NCBI RefSeq assembly: GCF_900185715.1
Contig: NZ_FYAS01000025.1
Location: 372,001-436,000, forward strand
DNA length: 64,000 nt
Source: Allobosea sp. CS1GBMeth4
GTDB lineage: Bacteria > Pseudomonadota > Alphaproteobacteria > Rhizobiales > Beijerinckiaceae
Reading direction: 5' to 3'
Shown here: positions 18,849-36,284 of the stretch, in pieces
How the letters are laid out: the number at the start of each line of letters is the position of its first letter
How positions within the stretch are numbered: the stretch's first letter is position 1
Program-made: the position numbers and the translations under genes
Notes under the pieces: generated by a model
Told to the model about the DNA's origin: nothing
Seen by the model: the letters and a program-made list of their open reading frames with translations, nothing else
The model's database searches: none

Positions 18849-18920
18849 GCTCAAAAATCCCGGCGGCTTTTCGCGCCGCACCTCTGGCGCTTTGCCGGCA
18901 TGCATCCTACCTTGTCGCGG

Positions 18921-19074
18921 CGGGGCTGCCTGGTGCGTGAGAGTCATGTATTCCCGGGCCCATACGACTCCCTAGGGAGCTGTCCCTGACCGGGTCCCTT
19001 GGACCCGGACACACGGCGCCCACCTACTTTGTAGGTGTCCCGGGATCGAAATCTCCACGGCCGAGGTGGCTCCG
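18921..19074 (+). ncRNA. ssrS: 6S RNA (ssrS)
   Basis: About 154 bases directly upstream of the 5-formyl-THF cyclo-ligase gene, the conserved place of 6S RNA. A long closing stem is formed by GGGGCTGCC (18922-18930) and GGTGGCTCC (19065-19073), nine pairs with wobbles. Inside are a GGGTCC-CTT-GGACCC hairpin and a CACCTAC-TTT-GTAGGTG hairpin flanking the large bubble that mimics an open promoter. 6S RNA binds the sigma-70 RNA polymerase holoenzyme in stationary phase. The exact ends are estimated from the stem. The -10-like CTACCT at 18907 would put the start about here. Confidence 0.85.
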
Positions 19075-19081
19075 CACATCC

Positions 19082-32528: not shown

Positions 32529-33056
32529 TCAGCGCAGCAGGCCGAGCCGCGCCTGCAGGCTTTCCAGCTGGCCGCGCACCGGATTCGGCTCGGCCGGGCG
32601 GGCGGCGCCCGACATCTGCTCCTCGAGCCGGCGGATCCGGTCCTGGAGCCGGATCGAGTGCGCGGTCAGGTCGCGCAGCCGCTCGGGCAGACGGCCGGCC
32701 TCCGCGCTGGATGGCTGCAGCATCGGCTCGGCGATGCGGACCTTGTTGTGCTCGGCCCGGGCCTGCTCGGCGCTCATCTCGCCCTCGGCGACGGCGCGCT
32801 GCACCAGCAGCCAGGAGGCGATCTGCATCAGGCGCGTGGTCAGGCGCATGCTCTCGGTCGCATAGGTCAGCGAGACCTCGCGCGGAAGGGCGGCCGATTC
32901 GGCGCGCCCGTCCCCGTCGAGATAGCTCGCCGTGCCCTCGACCAACCCCATCCCCTCGCGGAACAGCTGCATGAACGCGTCCGATTTGACGAAGCTGCGC
33001 GCAAACGAGATCGCGCCCTCATCGGCCTCGGGCCTCAGCATCGTCAGATCGGTCAT
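32529..33056 (-). CDS. rcdA: DUF1465 protein, RcdA-type regulator of CtrA degradation
   Basis: A 175-residue helical protein. The N-terminal ISFARSFVKSDAFMQLFREGM and central ATESMRLTTRLMQIASWLLVQRAVAEGEMS match DUF1465, the family of Caulobacter RcdA, an adaptor that helps ClpXP degrade the cell-cycle regulator CtrA. The C-terminal part is a coiled-coil (SIRLQDRIRRLEEQM). ATG 33056 was chosen because GGAGAC precedes it at eight bases; the ATG two codons upstream is too close. The upstream region contains GTTAAGGTTAAC (33169-33180), TTAA half-sites of the CtrA type. Whether it acts on CtrA here is inferred from the family. Confidence 0.8.
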   Translation of the reverse strand: MTDLTMLRPEADEGAISFARSFVKSDAFMQLFREGMGLVEGTASYLDGDGRAESAALPREVSLTYATESMRLTTRLMQIASWLLVQRAVAEGEMSAEQARAEHNKVRIAEPMLQPSSAEAGRLPERLRDLTAHSIRLQDRIRRLEEQMSGAARPAEPNPVRGQLESLQARLGLLR

Positions 33057-33237
33057 TCCCATGTCTCCAATCGGCACAGCGGCGTGCGATCGAAGGACAC
33101 GACGCCGACTCTGGCCGGGACGCCGCAAGGATAACGCCATCGTCGTGTCGGCGCCGTGGTAACCCCTCGTTAAGGTTAACGGTGCCATGGTCCGGCCCGG
33201 CGCACCCCGCCCGTCCGGCCGATCCGGACCGTGGACG

Positions 33238-33264
33238 AAAAAAGAGCCGCCCCGAAGGCGGCTC
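33238..33264 (-). terminator. Rho-independent terminator (end of the candidate sRNA)
   Basis: 8-bp perfect stem (33244-33251 with 33257-33264; GAGCCGCC), 5-base loop, followed on the minus strand by six T (33238-33243). It is a strong intrinsic terminator, 143 bases past the stop of the 33407-33703 gene. Confidence 0.85.
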
Positions 33265-33331
33265 GAAGGTCAACAGGGAGGCGTCAAACAGAGTGGGCAG
33301 GAGCCACTCGACATCCAGACAATCTGGACGA
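33238..33331 (-). ncRNA. Candidate small regulatory RNA with anti-Shine-Dalgarno loops
   Basis: On the minus strand, in the 350-base gap between rcdA and the next gene, about 94 bases could form three hairpins. Hairpin A (33312-33330) has TCCAGA/TCTGGA. Hairpin B (33291-33309) has GAGTGG/CCACTC with the loop CUCCUGC. A single-stranded linker holds CCUCCCU (33275-33281). Hairpin C (33244-33264) is a terminator followed by six T. The CUCCU loop and CCUCCC linker are anti-Shine-Dalgarno motifs, as in alphaproteobacterial trans-acting sRNAs (AbcR/alpha-r14 types). A TTTATG -10-like element lies at 33338-33343 and a CtrA-type box spans the -35. It could instead be a processed 3' end of the upstream mRNA. 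Confidence 0.5.
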
Positions 33332-33353
33332 TGCGATTCATAAATCGGAATCG

Positions 33354-33369
33354 TTAAGCGGCCGTTAAC
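33354..33369 (-). promoter_or_regulatory. CtrA-type binding site TTAA-N7-TTAAC
   Basis: The plus strand reads TTAAGCGGCCGTTAAC, and because the two halves mirror each other the minus strand also fits TTAA-N7-TTAAC, the CtrA consensus. It lies 22-38 bases ahead of the predicted start of the candidate sRNA, overlapping its -35 region. It sits 37 bases after the stop of the small exported protein, so it does not obviously serve a protein gene. Confidence 0.5.
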
Positions 33370-33406
33370 GCCGGCTGAAAATGCGACAAATTCGAGCGAT
33401 TACGGT

Positions 33407-33703
33407 TCAACGCGTGATCGTCAGCTTCAGGCCGAAGCGGTCGCTGTGCAGGTGCTCGCCCAGGGTGTAGCGGTAGGTGGCGCCGAGGCTGACCCGGGGC
33501 GCCAGCTCGCGCCTGATCTCGATGCTGTGGCCGCCGAGCACGGTGACCGGCGCCTGCACGACGACGACGGTATCCGGCAGCTTCAGCCTGAACGCGGCGA
33601 GCGGCTGGCCGCCATCCTCGCGCAGGCCCAGGCTGGCGATGTCCTCCAGGGCGAAAGCCGGAGCGGCGGCGAGCAAGGCAATGGCGAGCGCAATGACGCG
33701 CAT
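33407..33703 (-). CDS. Small exported protein of unknown function
   Basis: A 98-residue protein with a Sec signal peptide (MRVIALAIALLAAAPAFA). The mature 80 residues are beta-rich with alternating hydrophobic residues (DTVVVVQAPVTVLGGHSIEIRRELAPRVSLGATYRYTLGEH). ATG 33703 follows AGGAGGGAGACG, an almost perfect ribosome site; the ATG ten codons upstream was rejected. Probably periplasmic. No family recognised; no operon partner. Confidence 0.75.
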   Translation of the reverse strand: MRVIALAIALLAAAPAFALEDIASLGLREDGGQPLAAFRLKLPDTVVVVQAPVTVLGGHSIEIRRELAPRVSLGATYRYTLGEHLHSDRFGLKLTITR

Positions 33704-33986
33704 CGTCTCCCTCCTGTCGAAAAGCAGGCGCATCGCCCGGCAACTGTCCGGCGGTCATGCTCTGCCTGCTGCGCTGTCGAACGCGGCCCGGCCGCGACAT
33801 TGCGTCGGCTCGGGCGGGCGGCACCCGCCGCCTTCGTCCACTTGTTCAGGATAGGCACTTCGGCGGTCGCTGCGAAGATGAATATCCGTTCATCTGCCGG
33901 CGCATCTTGTCGCGTGGCGGAAAAGCCTCATCGGCCGGCGACGACGGGTCGCGACCTTGCCTCCGCTTGACCGCCGCAGCCGTGCC

Positions 33987-34187
33987 TCAGGCCTTCTTCT
34001 GGAAGAAGGCGTCGGCGGCCGAGCGCGAGGCCGATTTGGCGTCGCGCGCCAGCTTCAGCCGCTCGATCTCCGCTTCGAGCAGGCCGATCCGCTCGCCGAG
34101 CTCGGCCACCGAGAGCTGCGACAGGTCCTGCCCGATCTCGTGAGCCCGCTTCGGCGCCGGGCGGTCGTCGTCGAGAAATCCAGCCAT
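33987..34187 (-). CDS. DUF1192 family protein
   Basis: A 66-residue protein (MAGFLDDDRPAPKRAHEIGQ, then LSQLSVAELGERIGLLEAEIERLKLARDAK and a short tail ending FFQKKA). This is DUF1192: a Pro-rich head and one coiled-coil helix, common in Rhizobiales beside a quinone oxidoreductase and divergent from it, as here. Function unknown. The start ATG 34187 follows AGGCGAGGC. Confidence 0.88.
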   Translation of the reverse strand: MAGFLDDDRPAPKRAHEIGQDLSQLSVAELGERIGLLEAEIERLKLARDAKSASRSAADAFFQKKA

Positions 34188-35429: not shown

Positions 35430-35549
35430 GGCGCTCCATCCTCCTCATCGTCGATGATTTGGATGACCGGCCGGGGCGGCCGGTCGGCGCCTGAGAGCTA
35501 TTGCCCGCGGCCTTCGCTGTATCGCCGCGACATCCCTGGGAGACGGCCC

Positions 35550-36284
35550 GTGTCACAAACGCCGCTGATGCCGAAAGCCACCGCGGTCTGGCTGGTCGAG
35601 AACACCTCGCTGACCTTCGAGCAGATCGCCGAGTTCTGCAAACTGCACCCGCTCGAAGTGCGCGGCATCGCCGATGGCGAGGTCGCGGCCGGCATCAAGG
35701 GCCTCGATCCGATCACCTCCGGCCAGCTCACCCGCGAGGAGCTCGAGCGCGCCGCCAAGGATCCGAAGCATCAGCTCAAGCTCGCCGAGCGCAAGGTCAA
35801 GGTGCCGGAGATCAAGCGCACCAAGGGCCCGCGCTATACCCCGGTCTCGAAGCGCCAGGACCGGCCGAACGCCATCCTCTGGCTGCTGCGCAACCACCCC
35901 GAGCTCAAGGACGCGCAGATCATCCGCCTGATCGGCACGACCAAGACGACGATCGCCCAGATCCGCGACCGCACGCACTGGAACACCCAGCAGCTGCAGC
36001 CGATCGACCCCGTCAGCCTCGGCCTGACCTCGCAGATGGATCTCGATTTCGAGGTGGCCCGCGCCGCCAAGGAGCGCCCGGCCATGGTCCTGCAGGAGAC
36101 CGGCTCGACCCTGCTCCCGGCCGAGGAGACCACGGCGCCGGAGCCGGCTCCGTCCTCCCAGCCCTTCGCCGACATGAGCCGGCCGAAGCGGCAGGAAGAA
36201 GAGAAGATCGACGTCGAATCGGTGTTCGCCAAGCTGAAGCAGCTCAAGCGCCCGGCCGACGAGGACGACGACGGCGGCTACTGA
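35550..36284 (+). CDS. trcR: DUF1013 protein, TrcR-type cell cycle transcriptional regulator
   Basis: A 244-residue protein of DUF1013. It has a conserved MPKATAVWLVENTSLTFEQI start, a helix-turn-helix-like EFCKLHPLEVRGIADGEVAAGI, a second conserved block RPNAILWLLRNHPELKDAQI...LIGTTKTTIAQIRDRTHW, and an acidic, less conserved tail. The family is called TrcR, a transcriptional regulator linked to the alphaproteobacterial cell cycle. The GTG at 35550 follows GGGAG; the ATG 18 bases later (MPKATAV) is an alternative. A good promoter lies upstream. Confidence 0.88.
   Translation: MSQTPLMPKATAVWLVENTSLTFEQIAEFCKLHPLEVRGIADGEVAAGIKGLDPITSGQLTREELERAAKDPKHQLKLAERKVKVPEIKRTKGPRYTPVSKRQDRPNAILWLLRNHPELKDAQIIRLIGTTKTTIAQIRDRTHWNTQQLQPIDPVSLGLTSQMDLDFEVARAAKERPAMVLQETGSTLLPAEETTAPEPAPSSQPFADMSRPKRQEEEKIDVESVFAKLKQLKRPADEDDDGGY

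Follow-up and report, generated by a model that had tools for sequence, protein, structure and literature searches.

A conserved CtrA-type box precedes the small RNA BjrC1505 beside rcdA across an alphaproteobacterial order

Proteins of the RcdA family deliver CtrA to ClpXP, GANTC is the site of CcrM, and GcrA acts at promoters in which GANTC is methylated. The small RNA BjrC1505 (Rfam RF02356) is said to have been described by Madhugiri et al. in 2012 from Bradyrhizobium and Rhodopseudomonas. According to the accessible portions of the papers concerned, CtrA of Caulobacter recognises the motif TTAA-N7-TTAA (PMC4287350), and the same motif stands at promoters in Methylosinus (PMC12403871). The Caulobacter RNA CcnA is reported in the available text as 182 nt long, located at the replication origin and equipped with a CCCC loop (PMC8959179). 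EcpR1 and GspR of Sinorhizobium meliloti are likewise alphaproteobacterial small RNAs, which act on cell-cycle mRNAs; in the accessible text they are placed downstream of divK-pleD and between SMc03844 and SMc03845, respectively, and have other pairing motifs (PMC4414408, PMC5928217). In the literature covered by our search, which left subscription journals and supplements mostly outside, the mention of BjrC1505 was a Herbaspirillum table, and neither a publication tying BjrC1505 or RF02356 to CtrA or rcdA nor a statement on a CtrA box or rcdA synteny for this RNA was found. Relative to the literature found in this way, the conserved CtrA-type promoter and the rcdA linkage of a known small RNA family may be new.

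The window (the whole stretch of DNA that was analysed, 64,000 nucleotides from Allobosea sp. CS1GBMeth4, contig NZ_FYAS01000025.1, positions 372,001 to 436,000) was compared with these systems. In the covariance search against Rfam that a preliminary description of this DNA had proposed, minus-strand positions 33375-33237 matched RF02356 over the full length of the model (1-140) at 94.7 bits against a cut-off of 50, with the same sequence, three hairpins, linker and terminator. The RNA family was therefore already known, and on this comparison the stretch is the predicted promoter and gene of a known, little-studied small RNA family (Table 1). Three parts of the preliminary description held: the small-RNA gene on the minus strand (by the full-length match and the covarying hairpins), the CtrA-type box and the association with rcdA. 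Its statement that no such RNA was known had to be withdrawn, as did its emphasis on a pairing loop and its proposed kinship with AbcR and alpha-r14, given that positions 33100-33480, searched with E values up to 1, matched only BjrC1505, SorX, suhB/MmgR and SorY. The features of CcnA as given in the accessible text were not found here: the window RNA lies beside rcdA, has a predicted length of ~93 nt and has the loop CUCCUGC. The EcpR1 loop UCCGCCGCAUCU, as published in the portion available, is missing from the window RNA, whose neighbours are rcdA, a DUF1192 gene and an unnamed gene.

Table 1. Positions of the predicted RNA, its promoter elements and the neighbouring genes in the window
Feature	Position	Strand	Remarks
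CtrA-type box TTAA-N7-TTAA (TTAA-CGGCCGC-TTAA)	33354..33368	-	single copy in window
GATTC, first GANTC site, in promoter spacer	33348..33352	-	25/25 genus loci
-10-like TATGAA	33337..33342	-	11 nt after second TTAA; at order-wide T/A-rich stretch, offsets ~26-28 from box start
GAATC, second GANTC site, overlapping -10	33335..33339	-	25/25 genus loci
BjrC1505 small RNA, predicted transcript	33238..33330	-	RF02356, 94.7 bits; 5' end placed by promoter spacing
Hairpin 1 (UCCAG...CUGGA)	33312..33330	-	5/5 modelled pairs with changes on both sides; 93.2% of cells paired (78 sequences)
Hairpin 2 (GAGUGG-CUCCUGC-CCACUC)	33291..33309	-	6/6 modelled pairs with changes on both sides; 92.8% paired (78 sequences)
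Linker UUGACGCCUCCCUGUUGA with anti-Shine-Dalgarno CCUCC	33270..33287	-	conservation given for CCTCCCTG
Intrinsic terminator, six T	33238..33264	-	stem 33264-33244, then T6; stem 98.5% paired (78 sequences)
rcdA (DUF1465), next gene downstream	32529..33062	-	start 33062 or 33056; NF051867, PF07323
DUF1192 gene, commonest upstream neighbour seen	33987..34187	-	PF06698, 2.5e-24

A single BjrC1505 copy was found in the genome of the window by covariance search. Matches at E ≤ 0.001 were obtained in 39 of 41 genomes of a set of relatives (own genome counted) and in 166 of 199 genomes sampled from the whole order (above the cut-off in 139/199), and in none of 14 control genomes, Caulobacter vibrioides being named among them. 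From the 41- and 199-genome searches, a subset of 176 order loci was analysed (for the 199-genome part, from among the matches listed). A covariance model without the promoter (R1) scored the window copy, itself part of the building set of the model, at 97.3 bits, and matched 61 of the 289 class genomes searched. Three genomes contain a second copy of RNA core plus terminator (L066, L067 and L151); these copies lack the CtrA box, and the stretch fetched for each contains no rcdA.

Positions 33331-33238 folded at -38.3 kcal/mol (z = -3.93; 1 of 200 shuffles equally good) into three strong hairpins. The elements first read from the letters, namely three hairpins with CUCCUGC in the second loop, the linker GCCUCCCUG and a T6 terminator, were all present. 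For comparative analysis, 85 diverse sequences were picked from 168, and 78 of these were aligned (7 left out); the three second copies, L130 and four loci with no T5 run (L050, L053, L055, L121) had been left out beforehand. Standard pairs were formed in 95.2% of the cells of the three hairpins, versus 36.1-53.6% in slid controls, and both partners of the pair had changed in 72 cells; on each of five measures, none of 500 shuffles reached the observed value. Hairpins 1 and 2 and the terminator, as features of BjrC1505 membership, were conserved in these 78 sequences, and the hairpins of the family covary, which on comparative grounds establishes the predicted structure. Conservation of the hairpins and the box in related genomes, suggested as a check in the preliminary description, was thus observed for both.

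In the minimum-energy fold, the linker additionally takes part in a fourth, weak stem. In the 78 sequences the share of paired cells in this stem was no better than in shuffles (117 of 500 as high), and its count of double changes was reached by just 16 of 500. The linker sequence CCTCCCTG was present in 71 of the 78 diverse sequences (168 of 176 loci) against 25 of 78 for CTCCT in the loop, although GGNTCCT occurred in 108 of all 176 loci. As judged from these alignments, anti-Shine-Dalgarno conservation resides in the linker more than in the loop of hairpin 2. In the Rfam alignments, the consensus sequences of SorX, SorY and MmgR/suhB have a similar CCUCCCU element ahead of the terminator; with these models the window scored 26.8, 19.7 and 23.1 bits, under the respective cut-offs of 46.6, 111 and 41. 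Compared with 33230-33309 (minus strand), RF02784, RF02651 and RF00519 share a CCUCCCU-plus-terminator module, perhaps a common 3' module of alphaproteobacterial small RNAs.

The 5' part of the Rfam model was examined separately. RF02356 draws 14 pairs within its first 43 positions. In 152 unique sequences, each anchored on a box that matched at ≥ 7/8 and was separated from the linker by 74-90 nt, these pairs formed in 43.6% of cells, compared with a shuffle mean of 43.5% and slides of 33-40%. Since pairing equalled that of shuffles, structure in these 43 positions was ruled out. Across the 167 loci whose box matched at ≥ 7/8, what is conserved there is the box and, to a lesser degree, the T/A-rich -10 region. 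The missing pair support and the conservation of box and -10 together suggest that the 5' third of RF02356 is promoter DNA taken for RNA structure; the RNA proposed here would differ from BjrC1505 as given in Rfam in that the model counts 43 promoter positions as structured RNA.

TTAA-N7-TTAA occurs once in the 64 kb (shuffle mean 0.01). This box, reported on the minus strand at promoter position in the preliminary description and read at 33368-33354, turned out to be conserved order-wide. Within a 90-nt promoter interval, at least 7 of its 8 bases were found in 166 of 174 evaluable order loci (2 of 176 dropped, with upstream sequence too short or containing N), in most cases at a distance of 77-82 nt upstream of the linker. 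In four control intervals of the same length farther upstream, such a box was found in 6/174, 5/175, 2/174 and 0/173. The box lies within the span of the Rfam model, so the count of 166/174 is biased by selection, and it was redone with a selection blind to the box. When named genomes were searched with a pattern covering 26 positions of the RNA core, 109 loci were obtained; all were used, and they include Mesorhizobium, Phyllobacterium, Microvirga, Methylobacterium, Roseibium, Hyphomicrobium and Brucella. The box (≥ 7/8) was present in all 105 evaluable loci (73 perfect; the other four had < 130 nt of upstream sequence) and in 2 of 103 control windows.

Selection by rcdA gave a similar picture. 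Among 61 order genomes searched, 56 had a match, and in the best 30 loci the linker was found in 27, with the box at the right distance in 25 of the 27. One locus (L262) had the linker and no box at the right place (1 of 26 linker loci with enough sequence), in another (L267) the linker was present and the promoter position fell beyond the contig start, and a recognisable linker was missing in three of the 30 (L248, L252, L261). Outside the order, 26 hits of the promoter-free model were considered (30 loci were fetched from the 61 matched genomes; that of the window and three from its family were set aside); the box was found in 22 of these and scored < 7/8 in 4, and the control contained it in 1 of 26.

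Across the 167 loci both TTAA halves at exact N7 spacing were far better conserved than the spacer. A T-run after the box was conserved across the order as well, and, with CtrA binding at the box predicted from sequence, the box could instead be bound by another factor or serve as an ordinary -35 element. We hold this to be improbable, given the conservation of both halves at exactly N7, the identity of the motif with that of Caulobacter and of promoters in Methylosinus cited above, and a sigma-70 consensus scan in which no promoter was found at the locus. The feature of a CtrA-controlled small RNA, a conserved TTAA-N7-TTAA at promoter position, is present, and the predicted BjrC1505 promoter is almost always accompanied by a putative CtrA binding site. 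If the 5' end of BjrC1505 lay upstream of the box, the box would not be its promoter.

The -10-like TTTATG noted in the preliminary description is present at 33344-33339 and overlaps a second -10-like hexamer, TATGAA (33342-33337); from the promoter spacing, we infer an RNA start near 33330. In the genus, GATTC-N8-GAATC brackets the -10 in 25/25 loci, with variable bases in the eight positions between, and GANTC was found in none of the three control windows of these loci. The other 151 loci included 12 with at least one GANTC and none with two or more. Two GANTC sites this far apart, which the preliminary description does not list, would arise by chance at a mean of 1.69 per window, so that only the conservation of the pair is informative. 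GANTC in the core promoter, as in GcrA/CcrM-type promoters, was thus found in every genus locus. The genome encodes CtrA, GcrA and a methylase with a RAMA domain, which we take to be of the CcrM type; ctrA is on the same contig (341378-342049 in contig coordinates), ~63 kb from the RNA.

The next gene downstream matched the NCBIfam equivalog NF051867, "protease adaptor protein RcdA", at 199.6 bits (cut-off 170) and PF07323 at 1e-53. The proposed association with rcdA extended well beyond the window: rcdA lies directly downstream on the same strand in 163/176 order loci and in 105/109 loci selected by the RNA core, the remaining four having just 37-414 nt of downstream sequence each. Such a position would also suit a cis-acting leader or attenuator of rcdA, in which promoter and terminated RNA set the read-through into rcdA with no role in trans. 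The distance from terminator to start codon (median 173.5 nt in 158 loci) and the rarer occurrence of CtrA-type boxes in that interval (43/158 at ≥ 7/8) are consistent with a leader. However, the RNA and the box were kept in five order genomes without a DUF1465 match (two at 8/8, three at 7/8) and in five genomes with rcdA elsewhere (in the order, one at 8/8 and one at 7/8; outside it, three at 8/8); outside the order, one further genome without a DUF1465 match kept the box at 8/8. The box being kept with the RNA where rcdA is missing or elsewhere indicates that it serves the RNA, which argues against a pure rcdA leader, and a plain terminator needs neither a conserved linker nor covarying hairpins 1 and 2. 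We therefore consider a leader unlikely. The five order genomes that contain the RNA and have no DUF1465/rcdA match (G155, G174, G145, G222 and G041) are 97-100% complete.

A wider survey covered 30 class-wide rcdA loci from 115 class genomes, the own locus and one of its family being among them. Outside the order, the linker was found ≤ 520 nt upstream in 4 of these 30 (L209, L211, L212, L235), and in 7 other class-wide rcdA loci the linker was missing but a box matched at ≥ 7/8. For the out-of-order RNA hits, rcdA was downstream within the fetched stretch in 12/26. By these two counts, the pairing of RNA and rcdA is a trait of the order and some relatives, and among rcdA loci outside the order it is exceptional, as far as gene neighbourhoods indicate. 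An element with N2 spacing (TTAAGGTTAAC / TTAACCTTAA) was observed between terminator and rcdA in the window (~33170-33181) and in genus loci (e.g. L003, L018, L030); TTAAnnTTAA occurs in that interval in 29/158 loci, and the N2-spaced element may belong to the own promoter of rcdA.

The usual gene order at the loci is DUF1192, RNA, rcdA, with a DUF1192 homologue detected in 120/176. The gene at 33407-33703 had no Pfam or NCBIfam match and was present in 5/176 loci (that of the window counted). A continuous mRNA running from it to the terminator had been named in the preliminary description as an observation that would overturn its reading; with the gene in only 5/176 loci, this fails as a general account and was discarded as a general source of the RNA. 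More broadly, the main product could be a 3'UTR-derived RNA, processed from the mRNA of an upstream gene (DUF1192 or, in the window, that at 33407-33703) with its end at the terminator. The upstream genes of the genus are on the same strand, the end of DUF1192 lies ~105-130 nt before the linker in most genus loci, and a terminator scan of 33000-33800 found no further terminator upstream of the RNA. Against this origin, a conserved promoter-type box at near-fixed spacing stands directly upstream of the RNA and the 33407-33703 gene is confined to those few loci, and we assign it only a slight chance. Read-through from upstream genes may occur in addition to transcription from the RNA's own promoter.

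A homologue was located in S. meliloti Ak57, in which DUF1192, a 362-nt gap, DUF1465 and rpmE follow in order. The gap contains a perfect box TTAACCGCAAATTAA at L416 2171-2185, hairpins, CTCCCTGTT and a terminator of the same kind. This homologue scored 46.0 bits (E 1.1e-9) with the promoter-free model and 27.2 bits with the Rfam model, the latter under the cut-off. Similar homologues were found before rcdA in Shinella and another Sinorhizobium. According to the accessible text of the paper by Pini et al., CtrA was bound at the rcdA promoter region of S. meliloti by ChIP and CtrA depletion was without effect on rcdA (PMC4433202), a result left unexplained and on which the present locus bears: a CtrA-driven RNA ending before rcdA would explain CtrA binding without an effect on rcdA. 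In the available portions of other papers, a CtrA ChIP signal is given for the rcdA promoter region of Caulobacter (PMC4287350), and agrobacteria are described with several rcdA starts and predicted CtrA sites farther upstream than in Caulobacter (PMC10469942), which fits a CtrA-driven RNA before rcdA. S. meliloti has another perfect box, TTAACCCTTTCTTAA, after the terminator and before rcdA (L416 2345-2359), so the ChIP signal there may be that of rcdA itself. In Shinella, too, a perfect TTAA-N7-TTAA was recorded in this interval, at L417 1849-1863.

As a whole, the locus is probably best explained by a CtrA-driven, trans-acting BjrC1505 small RNA. Phosphorylated CtrA would bind the box over the -35 region, and an RNA of ~93 nt would be transcribed from ~33330 to the terminator at 33238. 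The conserved linker GACGCCUCCCUGUU would pair with Shine-Dalgarno sequences, and from this complementarity, together with the promoter elements, we infer CtrA binding, cell-cycle timing and repression of translation in trans. BjrC1505 would then be a CtrA-timed, trans-acting repressor of translation, and the locus would have two outputs (RNA and rcdA) acting when CtrA is active. The two GANTC sites around the -10 may add a CcrM/GcrA input in the genus. Across the order, BjrC1505, for which no assigned function was found, would acquire a probable regulator and a usual neighbour in the genome. Beside CcnA, it would be a further RNA under a CtrA-type promoter, in this case a widely conserved RNA linked to rcdA. 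A wider reading is somewhat doubtful: that BjrC1505 is a core, order-wide RNA of the CtrA regulon, pairing with Shine-Dalgarno sequences as a post-transcriptional arm of the CtrA circuit (Hyphomicrobiales and some neighbouring orders) and gated by CcrM in the genus, and that the S. meliloti homologue below the cut-off accounts, as a CtrA-responsive transcript, for the ChIP signal at rcdA.

Candidate targets were searched with the linker. In one genome the ctrA start region ranked at the 5th percentile of 60 background starts for linker pairing; across 24 genus genomes (the linker of the window being used throughout) shuffled linkers were as good in 118/200, and ctrA was rejected as a target. 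The gcrA and rcdA start regions were not outstanding for linker pairing (one genome). The linker complement CAGGGAGGC had 73 sites genome-wide (one of them the RNA gene itself) versus 17 for the reversed control, and of the 30 sites inspected among these 73, few had a plausible start codon at ribosome-binding distance (e.g. L286), and none is put forward as a target. Elsewhere in the window, a protein of the TrcR cell-cycle regulator family is encoded at 35454-36284 (plus strand; PF06242, 4.6e-65), ~2 kb from the RNA, and a 6S RNA was identified at 18920-19076 (plus strand; RF00013, 76.5 bits).
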